Source: an uncultured Paracoccus sp. (GTDB lineage: Bacteria; Pseudomonadota; Alphaproteobacteria; Rhodobacterales; Rhodobacteraceae). Taken from it: a stretch of DNA of 64,000 nt. Of this stretch, positions 10,376-30,061 are shown one piece after another. The notes under the pieces are model-generated. The model was not told where the DNA came from and ran no database searches. It saw nothing but the letters and a program-made list of their open reading frames with translations. The stretch lies in assembly GCF_945915435.1 (NCBI RefSeq), contig NZ_CAMEFG010000016.1, forward strand, positions 1 to 64,000. Direction: 5' to 3'. A program made the position numbers and the translations under genes. Within the stretch, counting starts at the first letter, position 1; every line of letters starts with the position of its first letter.

Positions 10376-10394
10376 TCTTCTCCTCCCATCTCTA

Positions 10395-10408
10395 TGTAAG
10401 CGATTACA
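10395..10408. promoter_or_regulatory. LacI-family operator upstream of the ABC importer operon
   Basis: TGTAAGCGATTACA, extended to TATGTAA-GCGA-TTACATA, lies directly before the permease ribosome site. It matches the TGTAANCGNTTACA pattern also seen at 2887 and 11686. A TTGACT hexamer about 20 bases upstream (minus strand) may be the -35 box. Confidence 0.65.
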
Positions 10409-10561
10409 TAGGTAAAGGAGCCAGTCAATCTTTTTTCTTTCGGCAAGGGAAGACACACGGAAAATTCAGCGCCGCGTATCGTTATTTCATATTTATTCCA
10501 GCCAGTTGCAATCGAAAGGCGGTTCCGGCACCGGCGCGCACCCCGCCCCCATCGGCAAGAA

Positions 10562-11587: not shown

Positions 11588-11685
11588 ACCAACATCCTCG
11601 CTGAACCTTCCGGCTTGCCGTTCAATTTCGCAGCAAGCGCATGGTTTGGCCAGAACCGATCCCAAAGGGGCTTGCGCCGGATTTA

Positions 11686-11699
11686 TGAAAGCGCTTACA
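11686..11699. promoter_or_regulatory. LacI-family operator upstream of hpsN
   Basis: TGAAAGCGCTTACA is a near-perfect palindrome of the TGTAANCGNTTACA type, 85-98 bases before the hpsN ATG. A TTGCGC...TTACAT pair with 17-base spacing overlaps it and could be the promoter. Confidence 0.6.
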
Positions 11700-11783
11700 T
11701 ACGGTCGAAAGGCAGAAACCGCACCGCGGCAGGCTGATCCGCGCGGACGCAAGCCAGAGGCCAACCACAGAGGACCGAAGAAC

Positions 11784-13091: not shown

Positions 13092-13092
13092 C

Positions 13093-13848: not shown

Positions 13849-14822
13849 AGGCGCTTGTCTATACCGATACCGAAACGCTTGAAATGCGCGACATGCCCGA
13901 CCCGGTCCCCGGCAAGGGCGAGGCGCTGGTGCGGGTCGAGGCCGTGGGCATCTGCGGCTCGGACATGCACGCATGGCTGGGCCATGACGAGCGGCGGCCC
14001 GCGCCGCTGATCCTTGGCCACGAAGTCGCGGGCACCGTCGCCAGCGGTCCCCGCACGGGCCAGCGCGTCACGTTGAACCCGCTGGCGACCTGCGGCGCCT
14101 GCCCGGCCTGCCGCGCGGGGCGCGACAATCTCTGCCCCGACCGGCAGATCATCTCGATGCCCCCGCGAGAGGGCGGTTTCGCAGAACTGGTCCGCATACC
14201 CGAGCGCAACCTGGTGGCCCTGCCCGACCATGTGCCCGCCACCGCCGCCTGCATGGTCGAGCCGCTCGCCTGCGGATGGCACGCCCTGAGGCTGGCCCAT
14301 CGCGTGCTGGATGGCACGCCCGCCCGCGTCCTGATCCTGGGCGGCGGCGCGATCGGTTTCGGCGCGGCGCTGGCCGCGCGGGCGATGGGCAGCGCCGATA
14401 TCGCCATCGTCGAGCCGAACCCCGCCCGCCGCCGGCGCCTGTCCGAAATCGACCGCTTCACGATGCTGGAACGCGCGCCCACGGGTGCCGCGCCCGATCT
14501 GGTCGTCGATGCCGCAGGTTTCGCGGCGACACGCCAGACGGCTTCGGATCTGGTCGCGCCGGGCGGGGTCATCCTGCACATCGGCCTGGGCCAGCCGACC
14601 GAGGGGCTGAACATCCGCCGCATGACCCTGCAAGAGATCACCTTCATCGGCACCTATACCTATACCGCGCAGGATTTCCGCGATTGCGCACAAGCCCTGT
14701 TCGACGGGCGCCTTGGGCCATGCGATTGGGCCGAGACGCGCCCGCTGAACGAAGGGGCCGCCGCCTTTCGCGACATTCACGGCAATGCCGTCGCCGCGCC
14801 GAAGCTGGTGCTCGTGCCCTGA
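13845..14822 (+). CDS. Zinc-dependent alcohol dehydrogenase, HpsO/HpsP-like
   Basis: Medium-chain dehydrogenase of 325 aa, related to sorbitol and threonine dehydrogenases. The catalytic zinc site includes GICGSDMHAW and GHEVAG. The structural zinc loop shows CGACPACRAGRDNLC with four cysteines, and the nucleotide fold has LILGGGAIGFGAA. It overlaps the SDR gene by ATGA, so the two are translationally coupled and probably act on the same substrate. Likely role: the second C2 dehydrogenase of the DHPS enantiomer-interconversion pair. Confidence 0.75.
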   Translation: MKALVYTDTETLEMRDMPDPVPGKGEALVRVEAVGICGSDMHAWLGHDERRPAPLILGHEVAGTVASGPRTGQRVTLNPLATCGACPACRAGRDNLCPDRQIISMPPREGGFAELVRIPERNLVALPDHVPATAACMVEPLACGWHALRLAHRVLDGTPARVLILGGGAIGFGAALAARAMGSADIAIVEPNPARRRRLSEIDRFTMLERAPTGAAPDLVVDAAGFAATRQTASDLVAPGGVILHIGLGQPTEGLNIRRMTLQEITFIGTYTYTAQDFRDCAQALFDGRLGPCDWAETRPLNEGAAAFRDIHGNAVAAPKLVLVP

Positions 14823-14859: not shown

Positions 14860-15759
14860 CTAGTCGTCGAAGGTCCTTGCCGGCAGCGCCGATCTGAGCC
14901 GCAGCGTTTCCAGAACGGCGGACCAATCCTTCGGCCCGAACCCATCCGCCCGCGACATGGCATAGACCTGGCTGGCCGCCGCCCCGACCCCAAGGGGAAC
15001 GTCCAGCCCGGCGGCATATGCCAGCGCAAGGCCAAGATCCTTCGACGCCAGCGCCAACCCGAACTCGGGCGAGATATCCCCGCTGAAGATCTTGCGATCA
15101 TAGGCGCCGGTCAGGAAACCCTTGCCCGCCGTGGTCCCGGCCAGGACCTTGACCGTGCGCATGACGTCAAGCCCGGCGGCCTCGGCAAAGGCCAGCGTCT
15201 CGGCGGTCAGCGCGTTCAGCACCGTGGACATGTAATTGTTGACCAGCTTGGTCCGCGTTCCCGCCCCTGCCGGTCCGCAATGGATCGTTTCACGGCCCAC
15301 CGCGTCGAATACCGGCAAGGCCGCCTGGACATCCTGCGGATCGCCACCGGCAAGGATCAGCAACTGTCCGCGCTCGGCGAATTCCGAGGTTCCGCCGACG
15401 GGCGCATCCACCATGCGGATCCCCATCGCCGACAGGCGCCCGGCAATCGCGTCGGTCGCCTCGGGGGCGACCGTGCTCATGTCGATGTAAAGCGTGTCCC
15501 TTGCCATCGCATTCGCCACGCCGGGCGCAGCGAACAGCACTTCCTCGACATCCGGGCCGTTGGGCAGCATCGTCACGACGAAATCGCGGCCCTGGGCAGC
15601 CTCTGCCGCGCTGGCGGCGGCGTGTCCGCCTGCCCCGGCGATCCGGTCGACCGCCGCGGGGTCGAGATCGAAGGCCCACAGATCATGTCCGGCCTCGATC
15701 AGCTTGCGCGACATGGCGCTGCCCATGCGTCCAAGCCCGATGAACCCGATACTGGCCAT
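14860..15759 (-). CDS. 3-sulfolactaldehyde reductase-like (YihU/SlaB family) beta-hydroxyacid dehydrogenase
   Basis: NAD(P)-dependent dehydrogenase of the HIBADH family, 299 aa. Its features are IGFIGLGRMGSAMS (Rossmann), TMLPNG, DAPVGGT, GAGTRTKLVNNYMS with the catalytic Lys, TTAGKG, and C-terminal KDLGLAL, VPLGVGAAASQVY and DWSAVLE. The last segments resemble E. coli YihU, the sulfolactaldehyde reductase of sulfoquinovose glycolysis, more than 3-hydroxyisobutyrate or tartronate semialdehyde enzymes. The start is MASIGF (15759) with AAGGGGGAA before it. It is convergent with the hps genes. It could reduce sulfolactaldehyde to DHPS, or oxidise DHPS in reverse. Confidence 0.7.
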   Translation of the reverse strand: MASIGFIGLGRMGSAMSRKLIEAGHDLWAFDLDPAAVDRIAGAGGHAAASAAEAAQGRDFVVTMLPNGPDVEEVLFAAPGVANAMARDTLYIDMSTVAPEATDAIAGRLSAMGIRMVDAPVGGTSEFAERGQLLILAGGDPQDVQAALPVFDAVGRETIHCGPAGAGTRTKLVNNYMSTVLNALTAETLAFAEAAGLDVMRTVKVLAGTTAGKGFLTGAYDRKIFSGDISPEFGLALASKDLGLALAYAAGLDVPLGVGAAASQVYAMSRADGFGPKDWSAVLETLRLRSALPARTFDD

Positions 15760-15887
15760 TCGTTCCCCCTTTTGCCGAATGCAGCCTGGCAATCCTTGAT
15801 CGAAAGACTGGCTAATTCAAATAAATAATACTTGCCGAAAGTGTAAGGGAAACTGCATGATTTTCGGGTTGGGGAAACGGGGCTGCC

Positions 15888-16799
15888 ATGACGATTCGAA
15901 TGCTCAGGACATTGATCGCGGTCGCCGATCACGGCACCTTCAGCGCGGCGGCGGATGCGGTTTTCGTCACCCATGCCGCCGTCAGCCAGCAGATGCGCGC
16001 GCTGGAGGCGGAATGGCAGGTCGCGATCTTCGACCGCTCGACCCGCACGCCGGAACTGACGCCCATCGGACGCGCCTTGCTGGCCAAGGCGCGCGAGGTG
16101 GTGCGCGCCTATGACGACATCGTGCCCTCGGTCCTTGGCGACGACGGGTTGAAGGGCGATTTCAGCCTTGGCGCGGTGCCCACGACCCTGACCGGACTGG
16201 TTCCCTTCGCGACCGCGATGCTGAAAGCGCAATGTCCCGAATTGCGCGTCGGGCTGTTTCCGGGCCTTTCCATCCCCCTGATCCATCAGGTCGAGCGGAA
16301 TGCGCTGGACGGCGCGCTGATCTCCAAGCCCGACATGCTGCCGCGCGGTCTGATCTGGCACCCGGTCGCCGCCGAAAGGCTGGTCCTGATCTGTTCGCAA
16401 AAGGTTCGGGACGACGATCCGGTGCGGATACTCAAGGAACACCCCTTCATCCGGTTCTCGCGCGATGCCGTGGTCGGCTCGATCATCGAGAAATGGTTGC
16501 TGGCCAACAACATATCCGTAAGCGACAGTATGGAGCTGGCCGGGCTTGAGGCGATCTACAGCATGGCGCTGGCCGGATTGGGCGTCTCGATCGTGCCCGA
16601 TTCCTGCGTCAGGATCGCCAGCCCGCCCGCCCTGCGCCGCATTCCACTGGCCCCCGAGGGCGGTCCCGCGCGGCACCTGGGGCTGGTCCAGCGCAAGGAC
16701 AGCACGAAAAGCCGCGTCATCCGCGAGATCGCCCGCGCGATGGAGCGCGCGGTCGAAGTGGGAACCTTCTCGCCCGAAACCATCGACCGGATCGCCTGA
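15888..16799 (+). CDS. LysR-family transcriptional regulator
   Basis: Regulator of 303 aa. The N-terminal winged helix (MLRTLIAVADHGTFSAAADAVFVTHAAVSQQMRALE) is followed by a type 2 periplasmic-binding effector domain (GDFSLGAVPTTLTGLVP...). It is divergent from the YihU-like gene across 128 bases and upstream of the TauE/SafE exporter gene on the same strand, so either or both may be its targets. Small-molecule effector unknown. Confidence 0.88.
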   Translation: MTIRMLRTLIAVADHGTFSAAADAVFVTHAAVSQQMRALEAEWQVAIFDRSTRTPELTPIGRALLAKAREVVRAYDDIVPSVLGDDGLKGDFSLGAVPTTLTGLVPFATAMLKAQCPELRVGLFPGLSIPLIHQVERNALDGALISKPDMLPRGLIWHPVAAERLVLICSQKVRDDDPVRILKEHPFIRFSRDAVVGSIIEKWLLANNISVSDSMELAGLEAIYSMALAGLGVSIVPDSCVRIASPPALRRIPLAPEGGPARHLGLVQRKDSTKSRVIREIARAMERAVEVGTFSPETIDRIA

Positions 16800-16953: not shown

Positions 16954-17697
16954 ATGACAGCGGAATTCGTCGCGGTGCTTCTTGCCGGTGCATTTGCCGG
17001 AGGCTTCATCAACGGTCTGGCGGGATTCGGCACCGCGCTGCTTTCGCTGGGGCTGTGGTTGCAGATCATGCCGCCGCCGCAGGCCGTGGCGGTCGTGGTC
17101 GTCATGTCGGTGGTCAGCGGGTTGCAAGGGCTGTGGACCGTGCGGCGCGAAATCCGCGACCGTCCGGGCAGGCTGGCGCTGTTCCTGCTGCCGGGGCTGA
17201 TCGGGCTGCCGCTGGGGGTCACGCTGCTGAACGTGATCAGCGCGACGGCGCTGAAGCTGACGATCGCCGGTTTCATGGTCGCCTATGGCGGGTTCTTCAC
17301 CCTGCGCCGCTCATTGCCGCATTTCGACAGGCCGACGCCCGCCATCGATGGCGGGATCGGCTTTCTGGGCGGCGTCCTGGGCGGTGCGGCCTCGCTGTCG
17401 GGGGCGCTGCCGACGATGTGGTGCGCCATGCGCCCCTGGCCCAAGGGCGAAACCCGCGCGGTGCTGCAACCCTATAACGTGGGCATCCTGGGCGGGGCCA
17501 TCGTGCTGTTCGCCTTGCAGGGCCTTTACGACCGCGAAACCCTGCTGCTGGTCGCGCTGGCCCTGCCGGGCACGGTGATCGGCGCACAACTAGGCATCGC
17601 GCTCTTTCACCGGCTGAGCGATTCGCAATTCCGCCGCCTGCTGATTCTGGTGATGTTCGCCTCGGGCATGGCGCTGGCGCTGCGCGAGATGTTCTGA
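16954..17697 (+). CDS. TauE/SafE-family sulfite/organosulfonate exporter
   Basis: Inner-membrane protein of 247 aa with about eight hydrophobic segments (former DUF81). The two family half-motifs are visible: AGAFAGGFINGLAGFGTAL near the N-terminus and GFLGGVLGGAASLSGALPTMWC in the middle. Members next to desulfonating enzymes are thought to export sulfite. Here it stands between the sulfonate blocks and downstream of a LysR gene, so a third export route beside the two SuyZ copies is likely. The substrate cannot be told from sequence. Confidence 0.82.
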   Translation: MTAEFVAVLLAGAFAGGFINGLAGFGTALLSLGLWLQIMPPPQAVAVVVVMSVVSGLQGLWTVRREIRDRPGRLALFLLPGLIGLPLGVTLLNVISATALKLTIAGFMVAYGGFFTLRRSLPHFDRPTPAIDGGIGFLGGVLGGAASLSGALPTMWCAMRPWPKGETRAVLQPYNVGILGGAIVLFALQGLYDRETLLLVALALPGTVIGAQLGIALFHRLSDSQFRRLLILVMFASGMALALREMF

Positions 17698-17729: not shown

Positions 17730-18044
17730 TCAAGCCGGTTTGAAGAAAGGTGCGGGGATCAGGATCTTGTTCTCGATATGATCGACCAGCGGGCGCATCT
17801 GGACCGCATAGGCCTGCCATTCCTCGGATGCCTGCAACGCCTTGCGGCGGGTCCAGCGGTCGTCCATGCTGTCATAGCCCCACATGTGGACGACCTGGTT
17901 CAGCGGCCCGATATCGGTGAAGTAATAGCCGACCATATTGCCCAGGATGCGGGTCTGCACGGCCAGCCCTTCCTCTTGGTATAGCTTCAGGAATTTGGGG
18001 ACATTTCCGTTCTTCAGCGTGTAGATCCGCATGTCGATGAACAT
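17730..18044 (-). CDS. NIPSNAP-family protein
   Basis: Small cytoplasmic protein of 104 aa, with start MFIDMRIYTLKNGNVPKFLKLYQ and WGYDSMDDRWTRRKALQASEEW, typical of the NIPSNAP/dimeric alpha-beta barrel fold. No catalytic role is established for bacterial members; the fold is shared with small monooxygenases and mutarotases. The strong site AAAGGAGC precedes ATG 18044. It is the last gene of the operon with suyZ, fumarase subunits and the SDH-like complex, and so probably serves that pathway. Confidence 0.8.
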   Translation of the reverse strand: MFIDMRIYTLKNGNVPKFLKLYQEEGLAVQTRILGNMVGYYFTDIGPLNQVVHMWGYDSMDDRWTRRKALQASEEWQAYAVQMRPLVDHIENKILIPAPFFKPA

Positions 18045-18068
18045 CGCGATGCTCCTTTCGGGGGGGCG

Positions 18069-19079
18069 TCAGATATCAAGCAGGTGAATGGCGCATAGCG
18101 CGAAAACCGCCAGCAGCACGGTCAGGCCGCAAACGATGGCGATGGCGCCGCCGCCGACCTCGCCCAGCTTTTTCAGCGAGGTCTTCATGCCAAGCGCGGC
18201 GATGGCCGTGATCAGGCACCAGCGCGACAGTTCCAGCAGGATCGCGGTCGCCTGCGCCGGGATGATATCGGCGCTGCCGAGCAGCACCAGCGCGGCGAAG
18301 CCGATCACGAAGAACGGGATCGGCAGCGCGCCGCCCTGCCCCGCCGTGCGGCTTTTGAAGATGAGCGACAGGGCGACCACGACCGGCACCAGCAAAGCCA
18401 CGCGCAGCAGCTTGACGAAGGTTGCCGCCGCGCCCGCCTCGTCCGAGACCGAATAGCCTGCGCCGACCACCTGCGCCACGTCATGGATCGTCGCGCCGAA
18501 GAACACGCCCATCGCGTGGTCGGACAGGCCAAGCGCCGCGCCGATGATCGGATAGAGGATCATCGCCAGCGTCGAAAGCGCGGTGACGGCGATGACGGTA
18601 AAGATCGTGTCGCGCTCGTGGTTCGCATCGGTCTTGGGCAGGACCGAGGAAATCGCCAGCGCCGCCGAGGCGCCGCAGATCGCCACCGCGCCGCCGGTCA
18701 GCAGCCCGAAGGGCAGCGAACGGCCCAGCATCCGCGCTAGCACCACCCCCGCCCCGACCGTCAGCGCGACCCCGGCGAAGGTCACGACCACCACCCCGAT
18801 CCCGGCCGATGCGATCTGCTGCACCGTGATCCCCAGCCCCAGCAGCGCCACCCCGAAGCGCAGCAGCTTTCTGGCGGCGAATTCAATGCCTGGTTCCGCC
18901 GCCGATCCGGCTTCGGCAAGGAAAGTCAAGGCCATGCCCAGCAGCAGCGCCATCAGCATCACGGGCGCGCCGTAATGTTCCGAGATGAACTTCGCCGCCA
19001 GCGCCACCGTGACCGCCGAGACCAGCCCCGGAAACAGCAGCCGCAGGGTGCCGGGCATCGAGACGGCAAGCTGTCTCAT
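18069..19079 (-). CDS. suyZ: SuyZ/YeiH-family sulfate or sulfite exporter (intact)
   Basis: Inner-membrane protein of 336 aa with about ten hydrophobic segments, from the UPF0324/YeiH family. Conserved stretches are YGAPVMLMALLLGMAL, LTGGAVAICGASAALAISSVLP, FGATIHDVAQVVGAG and the C-terminal LSRWCLITAIAALGMKTSL. It is the undamaged paralogue of the gene at 4152-5089. Its ATG overlaps the fumarase beta stop (ATGA), so it is part of the SDH-like/fumarase operon. SuyZ proteins export the sulfur oxyanion left after desulfonation. Such close coupling implies that this operon's pathway also sets free sulfite or sulfate. An energy source (proton motive force) is assumed from the family. Confidence 0.85.
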   Translation of the reverse strand: MRQLAVSMPGTLRLLFPGLVSAVTVALAAKFISEHYGAPVMLMALLLGMALTFLAEAGSAAEPGIEFAARKLLRFGVALLGLGITVQQIASAGIGVVVVTFAGVALTVGAGVVLARMLGRSLPFGLLTGGAVAICGASAALAISSVLPKTDANHERDTIFTVIAVTALSTLAMILYPIIGAALGLSDHAMGVFFGATIHDVAQVVGAGYSVSDEAGAAATFVKLLRVALLVPVVVALSLIFKSRTAGQGGALPIPFFVIGFAALVLLGSADIIPAQATAILLELSRWCLITAIAALGMKTSLKKLGEVGGGAIAIVCGLTVLLAVFALCAIHLLDI

Positions 19080-19744
19080 CCGATCAATTCGTCCCGGCGG
19101 TCGTCGGTCTCGCCGAAGCGTTTCAGAACGGCGGGCCTGGTGCCTTCGTAGACGCGGGCCAGGTTCTCGGCGATCTTGGCGTTCTCGCGCTCGAACAGGC
19201 AGTTGCCTTCAAGGTCCGAGGCCACCAGGAACGGTCCCATCCGGTTGCAGCGGATCACCCACATCGCCTGGGCAAGGCCCAGTTCCTCGTTCCAATGCAC
19301 GGCCTCGACATTCTCGACCCCGCGGCCCAGCAGCGCGCCGGTGCCATAGCCCACGGTGGACAGGTAGACCGCGCCGTTCGGGACAAAATATTCCTTGTAG
19401 TCCCTGGACGACATGCCGCCCTTGCCGATGATCAGCTTGGCGCCGGTCCTGGCCATCCATTCGGGCAGCCACTTGGCAAAGCGAAAGCTGGCGGTGGCGG
19501 TCACTGCGCCCATGTCGAAGCTGCCGTCCTCGCGGATCGTGGCGGCGGGCGAGCAATGGAAATTCGCCGCGCTTTGCGAGGGCAGCTCCATCGGGATATT
19601 GGCCTGGTCTTCCAGCGCGCGCATATAGACGCCTTCGCGCGCGGTATACATCAGCCCGTTCAGATAAACGATGTCGCCCAGGCGCAGGGCGGCGATTTCC
19701 TCGGGCGTGGGGGTGGTGGACAGGATGACTTCACGCGGTTTCAT
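19076..19744 (-). CDS. Class I fumarase-type hydro-lyase, beta subunit
   Basis: C-terminal domain protein of the two-subunit iron-sulfur fumarase/L-tartrate dehydratase family, 222 aa. Family features are LRLGDIVYLNGLMYTARE near the N-terminus, TASFRFAKWLPEWMARTGAKLIIGKGG and PNGAVYLSTVGYGTG. The start is MKPREVIL (19744), overlapping the alpha subunit's stop by ATGA; the long track start lies inside that gene. It forms the lid over the [4Fe-4S] active site with the alpha subunit. Substrate may be fumarate, but a substituted dicarboxylate is possible given the neighbours. Confidence 0.85.
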   Translation of the reverse strand: MKPREVILSTTPTPEEIAALRLGDIVYLNGLMYTAREGVYMRALEDQANIPMELPSQSAANFHCSPAATIREDGSFDMGAVTATASFRFAKWLPEWMARTGAKLIIGKGGMSSRDYKEYFVPNGAVYLSTVGYGTGALLGRGVENVEAVHWNEELGLAQAMWVIRCNRMGPFLVASDLEGNCLFERENAKIAENLARVYEGTRPAVLKRFGETDDRRDELIG

Positions 19745-20712
19745 TCGGCGGCCTCCGTGGTGGCAGGCTGTTGGGTCACATCCCAGCCCACGGTCTCGCG
19801 GCGTTGATAGGGGGTGAACCAGTCGGGATCGGTGCGATGCTCGACCCGCCCATCGGGGAAGATGCGGGCCACGGCGCGGCGCGAGGACAGGCAGAAAGCA
19901 TGAACCGACATCTGCATGCCGCCGGTATGGCAATATCCGACCTCGATATGGGTATCGATCACCATGTTCTTGCCGACAAAGCCCATCGCGCCCATGCCGA
20001 TCGAGTTGCCCAGCTCCTTGAACTCTTCCTCAAGCGCGGCGATGCGCGGGTCGCTGTTGCGGTCGCCCACCGTGCGCAGGCAGGCGGCGCGCTTGCCCAG
20101 CACCATGCAACTGTCCTTGCAGCCGCCCAGGCCGATGCCGATGATCGCCGGCTGGCAGGCCAGCCCGCGCTTGCCAAAGGCCACGAGGCTGTCCAGATAG
20201 AACCGCTTGATCCCCTGAATCCCGTCCGAGGGGAACAGCATCCGGTAATCGGTCCCGAACAGCCCGCCCTTGTGGACGGTAATCAGGTCGATCCATTCGC
20301 CGCCCGGTTCATAGCCATATTCGATTTCCGGCGCGCCGATGCCGACGTTGTTGTCATGGTCGGTGCGCCACAGCGGATGCACCCGGTTGGGGCGCAGGGG
20401 CACGCCGTTCGTGGCGCTGGCGGTGGCGCGGCGCAAGGCCTCCTCCAGCGCGACGGGGCCGCCTTCGATGCGGGTGTCGTTGCCCATCTTGACATACCAG
20501 CGCGGGGTGCCGGTATCGCCGCACATGGCGCGGCGGTCCTGCTTGGCGGCCTCGTAATTCTCGAGCATCGCCTGCAAGACGAAAGAGGACAGGTCGCCGT
20601 CCTCGGTCTTTGCGGCGGCTTGCAGCCCTTGCAGGTAATCCTCGGGGATCTCGATGGCGGCCTTGGCCATCAGATCCTCGGCGGTGGACTGGATCAGGTT
20701 GATCGGTATCAC
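19741..20712 (-). CDS. Class I fumarase-type hydro-lyase, alpha subunit ([4Fe-4S])
   Basis: Catalytic subunit of 323 aa. Three cysteines expected to hold the [4Fe-4S] cluster are visible in AMCGDTGTP, GLGGCKDSCM and GYCHTGGMQ. VGIGAPEIEYGYEPGGEW and MGAMGFVGKN are further family blocks. The start is GTG 20712 with AAGGAAG upstream. It forms one enzyme with the beta subunit encoded next. It would add water across the double bond made by the SDH-like complex of the same operon. Fumarate, mesaconate and tartrate enzymes all share this fold, so substrate specificity is open. Confidence 0.87.
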   Translation of the reverse strand: MIPINLIQSTAEDLMAKAAIEIPEDYLQGLQAAAKTEDGDLSSFVLQAMLENYEAAKQDRRAMCGDTGTPRWYVKMGNDTRIEGGPVALEEALRRATASATNGVPLRPNRVHPLWRTDHDNNVGIGAPEIEYGYEPGGEWIDLITVHKGGLFGTDYRMLFPSDGIQGIKRFYLDSLVAFGKRGLACQPAIIGIGLGGCKDSCMVLGKRAACLRTVGDRNSDPRIAALEEEFKELGNSIGMGAMGFVGKNMVIDTHIEVGYCHTGGMQMSVHAFCLSSRRAVARIFPDGRVEHRTDPDWFTPYQRRETVGWDVTQQPATTEAAE

Positions 20713-20733
20713 GTTCGCTTCCTTCCTGATTGG

Positions 20734-22494
20734 CTATTGCGCGGCGACCAGCGTTTCGGGTTCATGCGCGGGCAGGATCGTCTCGCCCGGCCGGACGATG
20801 GTGAAGGCGACCTGTTCGCGGCTCAGCACCAGGTCATCGCCGCTTTTCCGCGCGAGGGTGAAATACGAAGTCTCAAGATCGCCGCTTTCGGGGAAATCCT
20901 CGCGGTAATGCGCCCCGCGAGAGTTCTCACGCAATTCGCCCGCCTTTGCTATGACCTCGGACACCTCAACCAGCGAAGCCATGTTCAGCCAGTCATGCCA
21001 AGTGAGATTAAAGGCCAGATTGGCCGGATCGACACCGGTTTCCATCAACTCGTCGCGGATCTCGGCGATGCGCTTCTGGCCGCGCTGCAAGCCGGGGCCG
21101 GTGCGCATGACGCCGACATCTTCCCACATCGCTTCCTGCAACTTGTGGCGCAGCGGCTGGATCGGCGCGGCGGGGCGCGAAAAGGGATGGCAGGCGCGTT
21201 CGATCTCGGCGGCCAGCACGGCCTTATCGGGATCGCGCAGCGACATGCGGCGCACATCCATGCCCATCACATCGCCCGCGATACCGCCAAAGACGGTCGA
21301 GTTCGCCACGCCATTGCCGCCCAGCCGGTTCGAGCCATGCGCGCCGCCCGCATCCTCGCCCGCGACATACAGCCCCTCCATCCCGGTGCGGGTGTCGGGA
21401 TCGACCACCACGCCGCCCATGAAGTAATGCGCGGTCGGCACCACCTCCACCTTGCCCGCCGCCAGATCGAAGCCGCTGTCGGCACAACGCTTGACCATGC
21501 CCGCGAATTTGCGGCGCACATTATCCGGCCCGAGATGGCCCATCGAGATGAACATGCCGACCTGGCTGGGGTCGTTCATCTTGCGCATCTCGGCATAGAT
21601 GCCGCGGCTGACCACATCGCGCGTGGCCCGTTCGCCCCGCGCGTCATAATCGAACATGAAGCGGTCGCCGCGCGCATTCAGCAACTGTCCGCCCGCACCA
21701 CGCAGACCCTCTTCCAGAACGGTGCCGGTCATGCGGGTATGGTCGCCCGCCAACAGGCCGGTGGGGTGGAACTGCACCATCTCCATATCGCGCAGCGGCA
21801 GGCCGATGCGCAGGGCCATCGCCAGCCCGTCCATCGTCTTGTCGCCCGAGGGCGTATGATACTTGTACATGGTCGGGCCGCCGCCCGTGCCCATCATCAC
21901 GCATTTGGCGCGGACAAAGCGGAAGCGGCCCGTGCGCATGTCGATGAACAGCACCCCCGACAGCGCCGTGCCGTCGGCGGTCGGGATCAGCCCGATGGCG
22001 CGGTGTTCCTGCAATTTGGCGATGGGACGGGCCAGCACCTGCTCCATCAAGCGGCTGATGATCTCGATGCCGGTCAGGTCGCCCTTGTGGACGGTGCGGT
22101 CGGCGGTCTGGCCGGCGAATGCCTTCTGGTGCAGCGTGCCGTCGGGGTTGCGGTCGAAGAAACAGCCGACCTCGTTTTCCAATTCGCGGATGCGGACCAC
22201 GGCCTGCTCGCACAGCCGCCAGGCCATGTCCTGGTTGGGCAGCCATTTTCCGCCGTTGATCGTGTCCATGAAGTGGCGCTCGACCGTGTCGCCGCCGCCA
22301 AGCGCGACGTTATAGCCGCCCTGCACCATGCGCGTGCAGCCGCATTTGCCGATCAGTCCCTTGACGGCCAGCGTGATCCGGGTGCCCGGCGGCGCGCTTT
22401 GCTGGGCGTGCAGCGCAGCGAACAGCCCCGCCCCGCCCGAGCCGAGGATCAGGATGTCGGTCTCATCCCGTTCGATGTCGAATTTCAATGGCAT
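20734..22494 (-). CDS. Succinate dehydrogenase/fumarate reductase-like flavoprotein subunit, divergent
   Basis: FAD subunit of 586 aa resembling SdhA/FrdA. Seen: LGSGGAGLFAALHA (FAD), FAGQTADRTVHKGD, HPTG (243-246), RDVVSR with Arg297, PTAHYFMGG with His356 and GSNRLGGNG with Arg390, so the core catalytic arginine and dicarboxylate ligands are kept. Two sites differ from E. coli SdhA. The residue aligned with the FAD-linking His (SHT) is Cys53 (GCT). The substrate Thr before the conserved Glu (TEG) is Glu261 (EEG), next to a six-residue insert after HPTG. This suggests non-standard flavin attachment and a substrate other than plain succinate. It sits between the anchor genes and fumarase. Confidence 0.85.
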   Translation of the reverse strand: MPLKFDIERDETDILILGSGGAGLFAALHAQQSAPPGTRITLAVKGLIGKCGCTRMVQGGYNVALGGGDTVERHFMDTINGGKWLPNQDMAWRLCEQAVVRIRELENEVGCFFDRNPDGTLHQKAFAGQTADRTVHKGDLTGIEIISRLMEQVLARPIAKLQEHRAIGLIPTADGTALSGVLFIDMRTGRFRFVRAKCVMMGTGGGPTMYKYHTPSGDKTMDGLAMALRIGLPLRDMEMVQFHPTGLLAGDHTRMTGTVLEEGLRGAGGQLLNARGDRFMFDYDARGERATRDVVSRGIYAEMRKMNDPSQVGMFISMGHLGPDNVRRKFAGMVKRCADSGFDLAAGKVEVVPTAHYFMGGVVVDPDTRTGMEGLYVAGEDAGGAHGSNRLGGNGVANSTVFGGIAGDVMGMDVRRMSLRDPDKAVLAAEIERACHPFSRPAAPIQPLRHKLQEAMWEDVGVMRTGPGLQRGQKRIAEIRDELMETGVDPANLAFNLTWHDWLNMASLVEVSEVIAKAGELRENSRGAHYREDFPESGDLETSYFTLARKSGDDLVLSREQVAFTIVRPGETILPAHEPETLVAAQ

Positions 22495-22497
22495 GGT

Positions 22498-22842
22498 TCA
22501 CACCGCCCGCAGAAGAAAGGTTGCAGAGATCAGGAAGGCGCCCGCCACCGCCCCGGCGGCCAGGCTTTTCTGGCGCGGCGACCAGGGCAGGAACTCCAGC
22601 GCCAAGAGGCGCAGCCCACCGAAGAAATGCACCGCCAGCAGAAAGACCAGCCCGAATTCCGCCAGCTTCACCAACGGGTTGTCGGCAAGGCTAAGGAAGT
22701 GGTCGAGTTGCCGGGGTCGCGTCAGCGCCAGCGACAGCATGTAGAAATGCGCGGGCAGGAACAGCGCCAGTGCCAGGCCCGACAGGCGATGCAGCATATA
22801 GGCCAGCCACAGCGGATGCCTGCGATGCGGCCTGACCATCAT
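22498..22842 (-). CDS. SDH/FRD-like membrane anchor subunit (cytochrome b type)
   Basis: Membrane protein of 114 aa with three hydrophobic helices. HRLSGLALALFLPAHFYML and AVHFFGGLRLLALEF carry the histidines and HxxGGxR pattern typical of SdhC-type heme b and quinone-binding anchors. Its ATG overlaps the stop of the partner anchor. It passes electrons from the iron-sulfur subunit to quinone. Confidence 0.8.
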   Translation of the reverse strand: MMVRPHRRHPLWLAYMLHRLSGLALALFLPAHFYMLSLALTRPRQLDHFLSLADNPLVKLAEFGLVFLLAVHFFGGLRLLALEFLPWSPRQKSLAAGAVAGAFLISATFLLRAV

Positions 22843-23174
22843 GGCATGGTCACGGCCAGAACGGCGCGTGCCCCCATGAACAGCAAGGCGGCGCCCGTGC
22901 CCCAGGTAAAGACCTCAAGCCAGCGCCCCGCGAGGCCGGTGACCTCATGCACGATCACCCGCAACCCGATGGCGGCGTGGATCGAGACGGCGACGACGAA
23001 AGCGCCGTAGAACAGGAACCAGGCGATGCTGCCCTGCGTGCGGGACAGGATCTCGGCGCTGCTCAGCCCGCCCTGGATGGCATAGATCATGACGGCCAGA
23101 TGCCCCAGAACCAGCGGCCCCATGACCATCGCGCTCAGCCGCTGCGCCATGTAGTAACGAAGATCAAGCATCAT
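22839..23174 (-). CDS. SDH/FRD-like membrane anchor subunit (second)
   Basis: Membrane protein of 111 aa with three hydrophobic helices. QRLSAMVMGPLVLGHLAVMIY and VVAVSIHAAIGLRVIVHEVTG mirror the heme-ligand pattern of the other anchor. The gene overlaps both neighbours by a few bases. With the preceding subunit it forms a two-anchor complex, so electrons probably go to the quinone pool. Confidence 0.8.
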   Translation of the reverse strand: MMLDLRYYMAQRLSAMVMGPLVLGHLAVMIYAIQGGLSSAEILSRTQGSIAWFLFYGAFVVAVSIHAAIGLRVIVHEVTGLAGRWLEVFTWGTGAALLFMGARAVLAVTMP

Positions 23175-23899
23175 CCCCTCCCCTTCAGGAACGACCGCGC
23201 GGCGGCGCGCTTCAGCCCGGCGATGGCGCTCAGCGGGTCCAGCTCATTGGGGCAAAAGCGCGTGCAACTGCCCTGCGAATGGCAGTTCATGCAGCCGCCG
23301 GTGCCGGTGACGGCATCAAGGACGGACTGCCGGTCCTGAACCTTGACGTCGTTATACAGCGTCCAGGCGCGTTGCAGCGCCGCCGGACCGAGGTAATCGG
23401 GATTGCCCGCCACCGTGTCGCAGGCCGCATAGCAGACCGAGCAGTTGATGCATTCGATCGCCGTATTCGCGACGACGCGGCCCGGATCGTCGGGGCTGAC
23501 CTCTTGAATCGGTTCCTCGCGCGTTCGGCTGGGCTTGTGGACGCCGCCCGCCTTGACCCATTTGTCGAAGAACGGGTCCATGTCCGCCACCAGGTCCTTG
23601 ATCACCGGCAGATTCCGCAGGGGACCGATCTGCAACCTGCCATCCGCCAGCACGCGCTTGACATGCGTCCGGCAGGTCCAGCGCGGCTGGCCGTTGACCA
23701 TCATCGCGCAAGAGCCGCACATGCCGACACGGCAGGCATAGCGGTAGGTCAGCGACGGATCGACCGCCTGCTGGATCCAGCTTACGACATCAAGCACGGT
23801 CTGGTTGTCATGGGCAGGCACGGAAAAGGTCTGGTAGGCGCCCCGATCCCCCGATCCGCGCCAGACCGCAACCTCCATTGTCTTTGCATTCTCGCTCAC
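23171..23899 (-). CDS. SDH/FRD-like iron-sulfur subunit
   Basis: Electron-transfer subunit of 242 aa. The plant-type [2Fe-2S] site is YRYACRVGMCGSCAMMVNG plus a later Cys (WTCRTH). The [4Fe-4S] motif is CINCSVCYAAC, and the third cluster region CMNCHSQGSCTRFCP is slightly longer than in E. coli SdhB. The start is GTG 23899 with AGGA upstream; an internal ATG at codon 8 has no good ribosome site. First gene of the eight-gene minus-strand operon that ends at 17730. Confidence 0.85.
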   Translation of the reverse strand: MSENAKTMEVAVWRGSGDRGAYQTFSVPAHDNQTVLDVVSWIQQAVDPSLTYRYACRVGMCGSCAMMVNGQPRWTCRTHVKRVLADGRLQIGPLRNLPVIKDLVADMDPFFDKWVKAGGVHKPSRTREEPIQEVSPDDPGRVVANTAIECINCSVCYAACDTVAGNPDYLGPAALQRAWTLYNDVKVQDRQSVLDAVTGTGGCMNCHSQGSCTRFCPNELDPLSAIAGLKRAAARSFLKGRG

Positions 23900-24224
23900 A
23901 GCGCATCCTGTTGGCTCAGTTCACGGGCCAAGTTTATTCACCAAAATATCTAACATAAAGGAACTAATTCTAAATTATATTGTAAATTATACTAACAGTT
24001 TATCCGCATGGATTCGTAAATCCAACTTACGATAAACATAAGAATTAATCAGTTTGAGGCAGTAAAATTTGCAAATAGACTGCCCGCAACAGGGCAGCAT
24101 CTTGCCCTGACTGGCTTGCGCAAGGAGGAAAGCGCGGGATCCGGTATCCGCCTCCCGCAAGGGGGTCCAGCATCACGGCGGCCCGGAAAACGGGACGCGC
24201 GCCAGAAAACCATAGGGAGGAGAC
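23900..24224. other. AT-rich divergent promoter region between the SDH-like operon and the second ABC importer
   Basis: A 325-bp non-coding stretch, strikingly AT-rich around 23935-24070 in contrast to its surroundings. It must hold the promoters for both divergent operons. An inverted repeat CAGGGCA-GCATCT-TGCCCTG is at 24090-24109. No copy of the TATAAGAT or TGTAANCGNTTACA sites is visible. The ribosome site GGGAGGAG for the ATPase gene ends it. Confidence 0.6.
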
Positions 24225-24995
24225 ATGCAGCATCAGGATCCGCTGCTTGCCGTTCGGGGCGTCACGTTGCAATACAAGACGCCCCATCACCTGATAACGG
24301 CAACCTATCGCGTCAGCTTCGATGTCCAACAGGGTGACCGCTTCATCCTGCTGGGTCCGTCGGGTTGCGGCAAATCCACGCTTCAGAAGGCCGTCGGGGG
24401 CTATATCACGCCCACCGAGGGGGACATGACGCTGAAGGGCCGCAAGATCACCCAGCCCGGTCCCGACCGGATGATGGTGTTCCAGGAATTCGACCAGCTT
24501 CTGCCGTGGAAGACCGTCAAGCAGAACGTGGCCTTCGCCCTGCAAAACGCCAAGCGCATGTCCCGCCGGCAGGCCGAGGAAAAGGCGATGGAATATGTCG
24601 AAAAGGTGGGCCTGGGCAAGTTCGCCGACAGCCATCCGCATATGCTGTCGGGCGGCATGAAGCAGCGCGTCGCCATCGCCCGCGGCATGGCGATGGAGCC
24701 GGACATCCTGCTGATGGACGAACCCTTTGCCGCGCTGGACGCCCTGACCCGGCGCAAGATGCAGGACGAATTGCTGAAACTGTGGGACGACACGCGCTTC
24801 ACCGTGCTGTTCGTCACCCATTCCATCGCCGAGGCGATCAAGATCGGCAACCGCATCCTGCTGCTGTCGCCCCATCCGGGCCGGGTCAAGGCCGAGTTGA
24901 ACAGCACCACCGACCCGCGCGAGGCCGCCGAGCTGGAGCGCCACATCCACCAGATGCTTTTCGCCCACGAACCCGAGGAGATGGAGCATGCCTGA
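24225..24995 (+). CDS. Taurine/sulfonate-type ABC transporter ATP-binding protein
   Basis: ATPase of 256 aa. Walker A is GPSGCGKSTLQ, the Q-loop lies in FQEFDQLLPW, the signature is LSGGMKQRVAIARG, Walker B is ILLMDEPFAALD and the switch His is in FVTHSIAEA. It is TauB/SsuB-like. The start after GGGAGGAGAC is clear. It overlaps the permease gene (ATGCCTGA) and is divergent from the SDH-like operon, so the importer probably supplies that pathway. Confidence 0.88.
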   Translation: MQHQDPLLAVRGVTLQYKTPHHLITATYRVSFDVQQGDRFILLGPSGCGKSTLQKAVGGYITPTEGDMTLKGRKITQPGPDRMMVFQEFDQLLPWKTVKQNVAFALQNAKRMSRRQAEEKAMEYVEKVGLGKFADSHPHMLSGGMKQRVAIARGMAMEPDILLMDEPFAALDALTRRKMQDELLKLWDDTRFTVLFVTHSIAEAIKIGNRILLLSPHPGRVKAELNSTTDPREAAELERHIHQMLFAHEPEEMEHA

Positions 24996-25890
24996 AGCGA
25001 CCGCCCGCGTCCTGCCCCTGCGCAACGGCGCCACCACCGAGCGCCCCGAGATCTATCACGACGATGTCGAGGGCGGCGAGTTGACGATCATCGAACAGCC
25101 GCTTTCCACCTTCGAGACCTTCTATCGCGAACCCTGGCTGCGCAAGCTGTTCATTCTGGTCGTGCTGGCCTGTATCTGGGAAATCTATGGCCGGGTGCTG
25201 AACAACGACCTGCTGTTTCCGACCTTCACCGCCACGGCGGGCGCGTTCTTCGGCGCGCTGATGAACGGCACCCTGCCCTCGGCGGCGTGGGTTTCGCTCA
25301 AGGTCCTGGTCACGGGTTATGTCATCGGCATCGCGCTGGCAGCCGCGCTGACCGCACTGGCGATGGCGTCGCGGATCGGGACCGACTTCCTGGAAACCAT
25401 GACCTCGATGTTCAACCCGCTGCCCGCCATCGCACTCTTGCCGCTGGCGCTGATCTGGTTCGGGCTTGGCAATGCCAGCCTGGTCTTCGTGCTGGTCCAT
25501 TCGGTCACCTGGGCCATCGCGCTGAACACGCATTCGGGTTTTCTCAGCGTCAGCAAGACACTGAAGATGGTCGGACGGAACTATGGCCTGAAGGGATTCG
25601 GCTTCATCACCAAGGTCCTGATTCCGGCGGCATTCCCCAGCATCCTGACCGGCCTCAAGATCGGCTGGGCCTTTGCCTGGCGGACCCTGATCGCGGCGGA
25701 ACTGGTCTTCGGCGTCAGTTCCGGCTCGGGCGGTCTTGGCTGGTTCATCTTTGAGAACAAGAACCTGCTGGACATCCCCAAGGTCTTCGCGGGTCTGCTG
25801 ACCGTCATCGTCATCGGGCTGGTGGTCGAAAACCTGATCTTCCGCACCATCGAGCGCTGCACGATCCAGCGCTGGGGCGTGCAGCACTGA
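24988..25890 (+). CDS. Taurine/sulfonate-type ABC transporter permease
   Basis: Inner-membrane permease of 300 aa. A cytoplasmic N-terminal extension of about 50 residues precedes about six membrane helices. The ATPase-docking loop appears in LKMVGRNYGLKGFGFITKVLIPAAFPSILTGLKI. One permease only, so a homodimer is expected, unlike the importer at 6916-10375. Two GC-rich hairpins separate it from the binding-protein gene. Confidence 0.85.
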   Translation: MPEATARVLPLRNGATTERPEIYHDDVEGGELTIIEQPLSTFETFYREPWLRKLFILVVLACIWEIYGRVLNNDLLFPTFTATAGAFFGALMNGTLPSAAWVSLKVLVTGYVIGIALAAALTALAMASRIGTDFLETMTSMFNPLPAIALLPLALIWFGLGNASLVFVLVHSVTWAIALNTHSGFLSVSKTLKMVGRNYGLKGFGFITKVLIPAAFPSILTGLKIGWAFAWRTLIAAELVFGVSSGSGGLGWFIFENKNLLDIPKVFAGLLTVIVIGLVVENLIFRTIERCTIQRWGVQH

Positions 25891-25896
25891 AATCGC

Positions 25897-25919
25897 GGCC
25901 CGTCCCGATGGGGCGGGCC
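25897..25919 (+). other. GC-rich hairpin between permease and binding-protein genes
   Basis: GGCCCGTCCC-GAT-GGGGCGGGCC forms a 10-pair stem with one G-T wobble, followed by TGTTTG only. A second stem, CCACGG...CCGTGG, lies at 25926-25946. It is more likely an mRNA-processing or partial-termination element that tunes binding-protein level than a full terminator. Confidence 0.45.
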
Positions 25920-25965
25920 TGTTTGCCACGGAACGGGAAACCGTGGCTTTCGGGAGGAAAAAAGA

Positions 25966-26970
25966 ATGAACAACTTCAAGCTGTCCGTCGCCCTTGGCGC
26001 GGCTTTGTCGGTCTTCGGGGCGCTGCCCTCGATCGCCGAAACCGTCAATGTCCGGCTGGCCCGCCAGTTCGGCATCGGCTACATGCCCCTGACGCTGGTG
26101 CAGGAACAGGGCCTGCTGGAAAAGCACGCGCAAGAGGCCGGTGTGGACGTCACCACCGAATGGCTGCGCTTCACCGGCGGATCGGGCATGAACGAGGCGC
26201 TGCTTTCGGGCAACCTGGACATCGCGGCGGGCGGCACGACGCCCATGCTGACGATCTGGGCGCGCACGCAGAACAACCTGGGGATCAAGGGGTTGGCCGC
26301 GCTTTCCTCGATGCCCTTGCACCTGGTCACGACGAATCCCGAGGTCGAATCCATCGCCGACTTCTCGCGCGGGGACAAGATCGCGCTGCCGGCGGTCAAG
26401 ACCTCGATCCAGGCCATCACCCTGCAAATGGCGGCCGAGAAATATCTGGGCGAAGGCAGGCACGCCGATCTTGACGCCTTCACCGTTTCGATGGGCCATC
26501 CCGACGCGCAACTTGCCCTGATGGGCGGCCAATCCGAGATCAACGCGCATTTCGGATCACCCCCCTTCCAGAACCTTGAAATAAAGGATCCGCGCGCGCG
26601 GAAGGTCCTGGACAGCTACGACGTTCTGGACGGTCCCCATACCTTCACCGTCATCTGGGCCAAGAACGACTTTGTAGAAGGCAATCCCGAAATCGTCGCC
26701 GCGCTGATGGCCGCGCTTGAGGAAAGCATCAGTTTCATCCAGGAAAACCCCGAGGAAGCCGCGCGCATCTGGGCCGCTGCCGAAAGCACCAACCTGACGC
26801 ATGAGGAAATCGTGGCCCTGATCCAGGACCCGCAAACCAGGTGGACGACCACGCCCCAGCGCCTGCTGCCCTATGTGAACTACATGGCCCGCGTCGGCCT
26901 GATCACCCAGGACACCGACGACTGGCGCGACCTGTTCTTCGACACCGTCAGGGACAGCGACGGAAGCTGA
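25966..26970 (+). CDS. Taurine/sulfonate-type ABC transporter substrate-binding protein
   Basis: Periplasmic binding protein of 334 aa. The signal peptide is MNNFKLSVALGAALSVFGALPSIA and is followed by ETVNVRLARQFGIGYMPLTLVQEQGLLEKHA, the typical start of SsuA/TauA-like proteins. LDIAAGGTTPMLTIWAR corresponds to the ligand cleft. GGGAGG lies nine bases before the ATG. Ligand unknown; a sulfonated acid is likely from context. Confidence 0.85.
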   Translation: MNNFKLSVALGAALSVFGALPSIAETVNVRLARQFGIGYMPLTLVQEQGLLEKHAQEAGVDVTTEWLRFTGGSGMNEALLSGNLDIAAGGTTPMLTIWARTQNNLGIKGLAALSSMPLHLVTTNPEVESIADFSRGDKIALPAVKTSIQAITLQMAAEKYLGEGRHADLDAFTVSMGHPDAQLALMGGQSEINAHFGSPPFQNLEIKDPRARKVLDSYDVLDGPHTFTVIWAKNDFVEGNPEIVAALMAALEESISFIQENPEEAARIWAAAESTNLTHEEIVALIQDPQTRWTTTPQRLLPYVNYMARVGLITQDTDDWRDLFFDTVRDSDGS

Positions 26971-28084: not shown

Positions 28085-29065
28085 ATGATTTCAAGACTTC
28101 AATCCGCGGCACTCGCCTTGATCGGCGCTGGCGCACTGGCTGCGCCGGTGCTTGCCCAGGACTATCCGACGCAGCCAGTCACCATCGTCGTGCCTTTTTC
28201 GGCGGGCGGGCCAAGCGACACCGTGGCCAGGGTCATCGCCCATTCGATGGGGCGCGAGATGGGCCAGCAGGTCCTGGTGCAGAACGTCGGCGGTGCGGGT
28301 GGAACGCTTGGCTCGGCGCAGGTCGCACATGCGGCGCCCGATGGGTATAACCTGCTGATCAACCATATCGCGATGGCGGTTTCCGGCGCGCTTTATGCCA
28401 ACCTGCCCTATTCCACGACCCAGGACTTCACCCCCATCGGCCTGGCTACCGACGCGCCGATGGTGATCACCGGCAGGCCCGGCCTCGGGGCCGACAGCAT
28501 CGAGGAACTGCTGGACCTGATCCGCGCGGAAGGCGAGGCCATGACCATCGCGCATGGCGGCATCGGCGGTGCGGCGCATCTGTGCGGAATGCTGATCCAG
28601 GAATCCCTGGGCATCGAGATGATCACCGTCCCCTATCAGGGAACCGGCCCCGCGATGACCGACCTGATGGGCAACCAGGTGGATGTCATGTGCGATCAGG
28701 CGACAACCACCGTTTCGCCCATTCGCAATGGCAGCATCAAGGCCTATGCGGTGACCTCGCAGGAACGTATCGACAGCCTGCCCGACCTGCCCACCACCGC
28801 CGAGGCGGATATCGCAGCCGTTCAGATCGGCGTCTGGCACGGCCTTTACGGTCCCGCCGGAATGGATGAAGCGGTGGTCACCAGGCTGGAGACCGCGTTG
28901 CAGACCGCCCTTCAGGATCCCGATGTGATCGCGCGGCTGGCGGATATCGGCACCGTCCCCATGCCCATCGAACAGGCCAATCCCGAAGGGCTGCGCCAGA
29001 TGCTGGAAGCGCAGATCGCCCTGTGGGAGCCGATCATCGACCGGGCGGGCATCTTCGCGCAATAA
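28085..29065 (+). CDS. Tripartite tricarboxylate transporter (TctC/Bug) binding protein, SlcH-like
   Basis: Periplasmic binding protein of 326 aa: signal peptide ending GALAAPVLAQ, then DYPTQPVTIVVPFSAGGPSDTVAR, the hallmark of the TctC family. A GGGAGGA site precedes ATG 28085. In sulfolactate degraders the slcHFG genes encode such a transporter. Here only the binding protein is present beside slcC, and no TctA or TctB-like membrane gene lies in the window. It either works with membrane subunits encoded elsewhere or is a ligand sensor. Confidence 0.82.
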   Translation: MISRLQSAALALIGAGALAAPVLAQDYPTQPVTIVVPFSAGGPSDTVARVIAHSMGREMGQQVLVQNVGGAGGTLGSAQVAHAAPDGYNLLINHIAMAVSGALYANLPYSTTQDFTPIGLATDAPMVITGRPGLGADSIEELLDLIRAEGEAMTIAHGGIGGAAHLCGMLIQESLGIEMITVPYQGTGPAMTDLMGNQVDVMCDQATTTVSPIRNGSIKAYAVTSQERIDSLPDLPTTAEADIAAVQIGVWHGLYGPAGMDEAVVTRLETALQTALQDPDVIARLADIGTVPMPIEQANPEGLRQMLEAQIALWEPIIDRAGIFAQ

Positions 29066-29116: not shown

Positions 29117-30061
29117 TTGAAGGCAGTCGTATCGGAATTCATGGAAGAGGACATCCTGCGCGACGGGCTGGCGTCCTGGGATATCGTCTATCGCCCCGAA
29201 CTGGTGGACGACCGGCAGGGGCTGCTCGATGCCCTTGCCGAGGCCGATGCCCTGATCGTCAGGAACCGCACGCAGGTCAACGCGGAACTGCTGGCCCGCG
29301 CGCCCCGGCTGCGTGTCGTGGGCCGGTTGGGCGTGGGTCTGGACAATATCGACCTCGCCGCCTGCAAGGCCGCCGGTGTCGCGGTCTGTCCGGCGACGGG
29401 GGCGAATGACGTCTCGGTCGCCGAATATGTCATCGGCGCGGCGATGGTGCTGCTGCGGGGCGTCTTCGCGACCCCCTCGCGGCTGGCCGGGGGCGATTGG
29501 GCGCGAAATGCGCTGATGAACGGGCGCGAGATACAGGGCAAGCGGCTGGGACTGGTCGGCTTCGGCTCGATCGCGCGGGAAACGGCGGCGCGCGGGCTGG
29601 CGATGGGGATGCGCGTCGCGGCCCACGACCCGTTCGTGGCGGCGGACGATCCGGCCTGGACGACGCCGCTTGGCCGCGTCGAACCGGCCAGCCTTGACCA
29701 GATCGTGGGGCAAAGCGACGTGATCTCGCTGCATGTTCCGCTGACCGATGCGACCCGCCACCTGATCGGGACCAAGGCCATCGCCGCGATGAAAAAGGAC
29801 GCGATCCTGATCAACGCCGCGCGCGGCGGGGTCGTGGACGAATCCGCACTGGCGCAGGCGCTGGCCGCAGGCAGGCTTGGCGGCGCGGCGCTGGACGTGT
29901 TCGAGACCGAGCCGCTGCCCGCCGATCAGGCCGCGGGTTTCGCGGGGCTGCCCAACGTCATCCTGACCCCGCATATCGCCGGGCTGAGCCGGGAATCGAA
30001 CCACCGCGTTTCTCAGGTCACCGTCGCCTCGGTGCGCGCGCATCTGACGGGGGACGTTTAG
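29117..30061 (+). CDS. slcC: (S)-sulfolactate dehydrogenase, D-isomer 2-hydroxyacid dehydrogenase family
   Basis: NAD-dependent 2-hydroxyacid dehydrogenase of 314 aa. LGVGLDNIDL, LGLVGFGSIARE (Rossmann), INAARGGVVDESAL (Arg), FETEPLP (Glu) and LTPHIAGLS (His) supply cofactor and catalytic sites. It starts with TTG 29117 after GGAGGAG. SlcC of Chromohalobacter belongs to this family and oxidises (S)-sulfolactate to sulfopyruvate. Direct coupling to a ComC-like gene and the nearby suyAB support that assignment over phosphoglycerate dehydrogenase. Confidence 0.8.
   Translation: MKAVVSEFMEEDILRDGLASWDIVYRPELVDDRQGLLDALAEADALIVRNRTQVNAELLARAPRLRVVGRLGVGLDNIDLAACKAAGVAVCPATGANDVSVAEYVIGAAMVLLRGVFATPSRLAGGDWARNALMNGREIQGKRLGLVGFGSIARETAARGLAMGMRVAAHDPFVAADDPAWTTPLGRVEPASLDQIVGQSDVISLHVPLTDATRHLIGTKAIAAMKKDAILINAARGGVVDESALAQALAAGRLGGAALDVFETEPLPADQAAGFAGLPNVILTPHIAGLSRESNHRVSQVTVASVRAHLTGDV

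Follow-up and report, generated by a model that had tools for sequence, protein, structure and literature searches.

The closest described route for C3-sulfonates, known from Chromohalobacter and Paracoccus pantotrophus, relies on SlcC, ComC, SuyAB and SuyZ and begins at sulfolactate, cysteate or dihydroxypropanesulfonate (DHPS). 3-Sulfopropanoate, known to arise from homotaurine breakdown and from the fermentation of sulfoquinovose and DHPS, is succinate with one carboxylate swapped for a sulfonate and otherwise the same. A 2026 review states that the 3-sulfopropanoate mechanism in Bilophila remains unclear (PMC12890257), and a 2024 paper (PMC11489063) describes its bacterial degradation as unreported, except in one thesis on Roseovarius nubinhibens ISM. 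Positions 1-64,000 of contig NZ_CAMEFG010000016.1 from an uncultured Paracoccus sp. (GCF_945915435.1), hereafter the window, contain an operon that combines a succinate dehydrogenase-like complex with a class I fumarase-like enzyme. On balance, we judge it likely that this operon encodes a membrane-bound 3-sulfopropanoate dehydrogenase and a 3-sulfoacrylate hydratase feeding sulfolactate breakdown to pyruvate and sulfite. It would thereby add a two-step 3-sulfopropanoate entry to the known pathway, every homologue of which is present in the window and in clusters of relatives.

The operon comprises eight minus-strand genes at 17730-23899, listed here in order of transcription with the succinate dehydrogenase/fumarate reductase (SDH/FRD)-type genes leading, and followed by the elements that flank it:

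23171..23899, minus strand: SDH/FRD-type iron-sulfur (FeS) subunit (PF13085; TIGR00384 at 177 bits, passing the cut-off of 88)
22839..23174, minus strand: SdhD-like membrane anchor (PF01127, weak TIGR02968)
22498..22842, minus strand: SdhC-like membrane anchor (PF01127; TIGR02970 above cut-off)
20734..22494, minus strand: flavoprotein from a separate clade and proposed subunit of a 3-sulfopropanoate dehydrogenase (PF00890 and PF02910)
19741..20712, minus strand: class I fumarase-like alpha subunit (FumA), proposed 3-sulfoacrylate hydratase (PF05681, E 2.6e-65)
19076..19744, minus strand: class I fumarase-like beta subunit (FumB), start ATG 19744 (PF05683)
18069..19079, minus strand: SuyZ-like sulfur-oxyanion exporter (PF03601, E 3.9e-64)
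17730..18044, minus strand: NIPSNAP protein (PF07978)
17717-17697, minus strand: terminator-like hairpin GGGCGG-GTGAT-CCGCCC then TTTT, found by eye just past the NIPSNAP gene
24225..26970, plus strand: TauB/TauC/TauA-like ATP-binding cassette (ABC) importer, divergent from the operon (PF00005, PF00528, PF09084)

Five of the seven junctions are a 4-nt overlap or a 3-nt gap. The FeS gene and the SdhD-like anchor overlap by 4 nt, as do the two anchors, while the SdhC-like anchor and flavoprotein are separated by 3 nt and the flavoprotein and FumA by 21; FumA/FumB (computed from the FumB start ATG 19744, not TTG 19933) and FumB/SuyZ each overlap by 4 nt, and SuyZ/NIPSNAP are 24 nt apart. The original prediction had described the eight coupled genes, a terminator after the last of them, the divergent importer and the coupling of SuyZ to the hydro-lyase, all of which we recovered. 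A consensus promoter and terminator scan was uninformative, and the hairpin was not listed because its T-run is only four. The operon is more than a chance assembly, since the order FeS-anchor-anchor-flavoprotein-FumA-FumB recurs in ~100 independent loci at 55-97% protein identity.

The complex resembles SDH and FRD (complex II) in its subunit set, in the FAD_binding_2 and Succ_DH_flav_C domains of its flavoprotein, and in the catalytic residues Arg288, His233, His356 and Arg391 (FrdA gene numbering), all of which are retained. It differs in the hydratase genes of its operon and in the flavoprotein itself, which is 33-37% identical to canonical SdhA and scores under the curated cut-offs of every listed SdhA, FrdA and NadB model. 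In a phylogenetic tree, the flavoprotein falls in a clade of 41 sequences (support 1.0) outside the Sdh/Frd clade (support 0.995), with members from Alpha-, Beta- and Gammaproteobacteria, Rhodococcus and two haloarchaea. The histidine that anchors flavin adenine dinucleotide (FAD) is replaced by Cys53, and all 109 proteobacterial members aligned, like those from the haloarchaea and Rhodococcus, have Cys here; given this change, FAD is likely non-covalent. The active-site Thr of the Thr-Glu motif (T245 of the FrdA gene, T254 of SdhA) is Glu261, likewise invariant in these members. A canonical SdhA with the usual Thr-Glu motif is encoded elsewhere in the assembly, on contig C25.

The hydratase pair shares with two-subunit class I fumarase and L-tartrate dehydratase TtdAB the alpha/beta architecture, the three cluster Cys and a conserved core. 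It differs in falling far under the NCBIfam equivalog cut-offs for fumarase or TtdA/TtdB (196.6 vs 276, 135.8 vs 365 and 117.7 vs 264 bits), and in two motifs: C[GA]DTG replaces CQDTG in the alpha subunit, and TATASFRF replaces GPTTxxRM in the beta subunit. The residue changes in the flavoprotein and the fumarase-like subunits may tune the binding of one acid group. A second layout, in Methylobacterium radiotolerans and at loci L079 and L082, has a different class I fumarase pair that retains CQDTG.

We infer the substrate, direction, regiochemistry and quinone coupling of the pathway as follows. The SDH-like complex would oxidise 3-sulfopropanoate to 3-sulfoacrylate and pass the electrons to quinone, and the fumarase-like heterodimer would place a hydroxyl group on C2 of 3-sulfoacrylate to give 3-sulfolactate, so that both steps mimic, on a sulfonate, the conversion of succinate to fumarate and malate. 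SlcC and ComC would then invert sulfolactate via sulfopyruvate, SuyAB would split (R)-sulfolactate into pyruvate and sulfite, and export of the sulfur oxyanion would fall to SuyZ and TauE. Organisms without SuyAB would use Xsc and, from the literature, CuyA. No Xsc was found in the host genome, which leaves SuyAB as its candidate desulfonation enzyme. The exporter role of the operon SuyZ is predicted from a PF03601 protein adjoining desulfonation genes; it scores 133 bits against TIGR00698, under the cut-off of 232.6.

The link to sulfolactate metabolism was quantified across 385 genomes of the class, 32 of which (~8%) encode the flavoprotein at E 1e-100 or better. SuyB occurs in 34 of the 385, namely in 20/32 flavoprotein-positive versus 14/353 negative genomes (Fisher p 1.6e-16). 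Collapsed to families, the counts are 12/18 versus 9/148 (p 6e-9), with the number of families (166) read from the highest one numbered; the tests ignore shared ancestry beyond this collapse. Xsc is found in 13/32 positive and 34/353 negative genomes, and either SuyB or Xsc in 26/32 and 43/353, respectively. A module yielding oxaloacetate would need neither enzyme, and the co-occurrence therefore speaks against that product.

R. nubinhibens ISM offers a further point of comparison. The hypothesis of 3-sulfopropanoate as substrate was framed before a genome scan turned up the operon in this strain (L104, 83% identity), adjoining TctABC and TauE. Its genome encodes Xsc and lacks SuyB, in accord with its known bifurcated sulfolactate route. 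According to the thesis, as cited in PMC11489063, its homotaurine route runs via 3-sulfopropanoate, sulfoacrylate and sulfolactate, the same intermediates as those proposed here. The open-licence papers covered do not name genes for this route, for which the operon is a candidate.

The window as a whole is, by its predicted gene content, a C3-sulfonate island in which homologues of SuyAB, SlcC and ComC are found together in one genome region. The original prediction recognised the operon and overlooked these surrounding genes, along with TauE, the HpsN/O/P-like genes and further importers:

5276..6457, minus strand: SuyB-like sulfolactate sulfo-lyase subunit (PF04295 and PF20629; the sole PF04295 match in the genome)
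6461..6748, minus strand: SuyA-like subunit adjoining SuyB (N-terminal part of TIGR03248)
6916..10456, minus strand: second sulfonate-type ABC importer with an SsuA-family binding protein (family matches)
11445..14822, plus strand: HpsN-, HpsO- and HpsP-like genes of the histidinol-dehydrogenase, short-chain dehydrogenase/reductase and zinc alcohol dehydrogenase families (family matches)
14860..15792, minus strand: 3-hydroxyisobutyrate-dehydrogenase-family protein (PF03446 and PF14833)
15888..16799, plus strand: LysR regulator (PF03466 and PF00126)
16954..17697, plus strand: TauE/SafE sulfite exporter (PF01925, E 4.8e-33)
28085..29065, plus strand: TctC-type binding protein (PF03401)
29117..30061, plus strand: SlcC-like D-2-hydroxyacid dehydrogenase (PF02826)
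30062..31051, plus strand: ComC-like sulfolactate dehydrogenase (PF02615)

From the roles of the Hps families, we take the HpsN/O/P-like genes to serve DHPS oxidation. The best NCBIfam model for the ComC-like protein is the L-sulfolactate dehydrogenase NF040650 (198 bits against a cut-off of 500), and the SlcC-like protein is at least 50% identical to the products of genes adjoining ComC in six relatives. SuyB is 97% identical to a P. versutus plasmid copy. Beside SuyB lies a second SuyZ (4152-5263, minus strand), split into two frames with ~35 middle codons missing; the P. versutus counterpart is intact. This copy may be decayed or misassembled, and the intact SuyZ of the operon may have taken over its role.

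Distribution across genomes is uneven. The flavoprotein was absent from 24 same-genus genomes, where canonical SdhA alone was found; its occurrence is thus patchy, and the operon is probably mobile. Plasmids often carry the operon, and its closest plasmid relatives are from Paracoccus, with a flavoprotein 94% identical. Neighbouring genes were counted over 111 loci, many of whose neighbourhoods are shortened by draft contigs: TauE occurs at 61 loci, TctA at 33, a thiamine diphosphate (ThDP) enzyme at 23, a SorA/SoxC-type sulfite dehydrogenase at 13, TauABC at 11, a gene resembling succinate-semialdehyde dehydrogenase (SSADH) at 8, SlcC and ComC at 6 each, and SuyAB at 5. SuyZ lies near the operon at 11 loci in Alpha- and Gammaproteobacteria, so the adjacency, whose restriction to this genome the original prediction had named as refuting it, recurs elsewhere. 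Around canonical SDH genes, none of these partners turned up in the 20 neighbourhoods examined, each spanning 14-20 kb. Full clusters, with the complex, hydratase, SlcC, ComC, SuyAB and TauE, are present on a plasmid of M. radiotolerans, at L079 and L082, and in Paracoccus sp. IB05. In NT-26 and L160, SSADH-like and sulfolactaldehyde-reductase-like genes and a TRAP importer lie beside the operon, a predicted gene set that fits conversion of 3-hydroxypropanesulfonate or homotaurine to 3-sulfopropanal and then 3-sulfopropanoate.

Several neighbours stand apart from these. The NIPSNAP gene accompanies the operon at 13 of the loci, in Alpha- and Gammaproteobacteria, and has no obvious role. The ThDP enzyme is full-length and acetolactate-synthase-like (L085:7404-9005, L171:11648-13273 and 21 more loci); its identification as Xsc was rejected by score, and it is possibly a sulfopyruvate decarboxylase or carboligase. 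In Methylobacterium nodulans, the gene after FumB belongs to the amidohydrolase family (L088:13685-14524), and Cupriavidus has a 60% homologue in the equivalent position (L090). On plasmid pRHL1 of Rhodococcus jostii RHA1 (L204, an unannotated record), the order is FeS-flavoprotein-anchor-FumA-FumB, with a lone SuyA-like match and a major facilitator superfamily transporter. A coenzyme A-acylating methylmalonate-semialdehyde dehydrogenase (MmsA) is encoded directly after FumB in Pseudomonas MPC6 (L087:13409-14899) and near the operon in Cupriavidus P-10 (L090); such neighbours may mark a variant yielding malonate semialdehyde.

These data bear on several other accounts of the operon. That a spare succinate dehydrogenase and fumarase of the tricarboxylic acid (TCA) cycle sit by chance in a sulfonate island is scarcely credible: family-level homology and the status of the alpha subunit as the genome's only PF05681 match would allow it, but we rejected an ordinary TCA duplicate on the separate clade, whose FAD and substrate sites carry fixed substitutions, the canonical SdhA on contig C25, the absence of the flavoprotein from same-genus genomes and the context controls. 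The original assignment of the operon to sulfonate breakdown, outside the ordinary TCA set, is upheld. The original prediction further proposed that sulfosuccinate is dehydrogenated to sulfofumarate and hydrated at the sulfonate-bearing carbon, with loss of sulfite leaving oxaloacetate. Dehydrogenation followed by hydration survives as the likely chemistry; sulfosuccinate and direct sulfite loss at the hydratase are disfavoured because SlcC, ComC and SuyAB, needed for sulfolactate, would be superfluous for oxaloacetate, yet they cluster with the operon in distant lineages and strongly co-occur with it. The SSADH-like and sulfolactaldehyde-reductase-like neighbours also fit a C3 substrate, and no link between sulfosuccinate and fumarase or succinate dehydrogenase genes was found in the open-licence literature. 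We consider sulfosuccinate very unlikely, even with the translational coupling of SuyZ to FumB, TctABC-type importers that would suit a tri-anion and the many loci missing SuyAB in its favour.

Two further possibilities retain the C3 compounds. Hydration of 3-sulfoacrylate at C3 would give an alpha-hydroxysulfonate that collapses to sulfite and malonate semialdehyde, the latter used by MmsA, and the MmsA genes of Pseudomonas MPC6 and Cupriavidus P-10 would suit such release, as would M. nodulans, where sulfite dehydrogenases are near the operon and SuyAB is not. This seems quite unlikely, given that MmsA is near just 2 of the 111 loci, that the association with sulfolactate enzymes is strong and that a sulfolactate intermediate is reported for R. 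nubinhibens. It is unlikely, too, that the substrate is another sulfonate or that the pathway runs in reverse, from sulfolactate through sulfoacrylate to 3-sulfopropanoate, as an electron sink. E. coli FrdA mutants without covalent FAD keep fumarate reduction and are impaired in succinate oxidation, so the likely non-covalent FAD would suit the reverse direction, as would apparent induction by sulfofucose, a compound degraded by way of sulfolactate. Against it, hosts have importers, SSADH-like genes and exporters or dehydrogenases for sulfite alongside the operon, a setting that fits an external sulfonate as carbon source, and a reductive branch would waste the substrate of SuyAB.

Oxidation of 3-sulfopropanoate nonetheless has several points to answer, chief among them the likely non-covalent FAD and the MmsA neighbours in Pseudomonas and Cupriavidus. 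Because loss of covalent FAD impairs succinate oxidation, oxidation of a substrate of similar potential should be harder. At the threshold used, just 5 of the 111 loci have SuyAB within 10 kb, to which two haloarchaea can be added; TauE and TctABC are all that many loci have, and 45 have no sulfite marker in the stretch covered, many of them shortened. Tested activity for any enzyme of the flavoprotein clade was not found in the open-licence literature, although publication elsewhere is possible, and the R. nubinhibens route is known from a thesis through the paper citing it (PMC11489063). When Paracoccus wurundjeri grows on sulfofucose, a 'fumarate and tartrate metabolism' cluster with a TauE gene is upregulated alongside SlcC/ComC/SuyAB, for which the authors propose a Krebs-cycle link (PMC12421959). 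From its annotation, this cluster (MDP0926751-0926761) is probably the operon studied here; the sulfofucose route bypasses 3-sulfopropanoate, so its induction must be read as gratuitous.

A variant in two haloarchaea extends the comparison to coenzyme M biosynthesis. There, the flavoprotein and FeS genes sit with SuyAB and TauE, and in Haloarcula also with a ComC-like gene, while an 'argH' protein of the aspartase/fumarase superfamily replaces the class I fumarase. XcbC, the sulfoacrylate-forming enzyme of bacterial coenzyme M synthesis (PMC8727900), belongs to the same superfamily as this hydratase candidate; the XcbC/XcbD system shares the sulfoacrylate intermediate and differs in being biosynthetic and without a link to an SDH-like complex. 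The haloarchaeal protein scores 257 bits against XcbC, below the XcbC cut-off, and 323 bits against ArgH, making the likeness to XcbC suggestive only. The genes at L203:6371-7873 and L172:6281-7783, annotated as 'argininosuccinate lyase', probably encode hydratases of the aspartase/fumarase superfamily instead. With slightly less assurance than for the window operon, we favour the view that 3-sulfopropanoate mineralisation depends genetically on a previously unassigned module, an SDH-like dehydrogenase paired with a sulfoacrylate hydratase whose fold in bacteria is unrelated to that in haloarchaea; Pseudomonas and Cupriavidus may form a branch in which the hydratase would itself release sulfite and malonate semialdehyde.

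Candidate genes for 3-sulfopropanoate degradation are now named, which makes the question directly testable. If the assignment is true, many operons annotated as 'succinate dehydrogenase/fumarate hydratase' would need correcting, and a stretch at the heart of the TCA cycle would gain its sulfonate counterpart.

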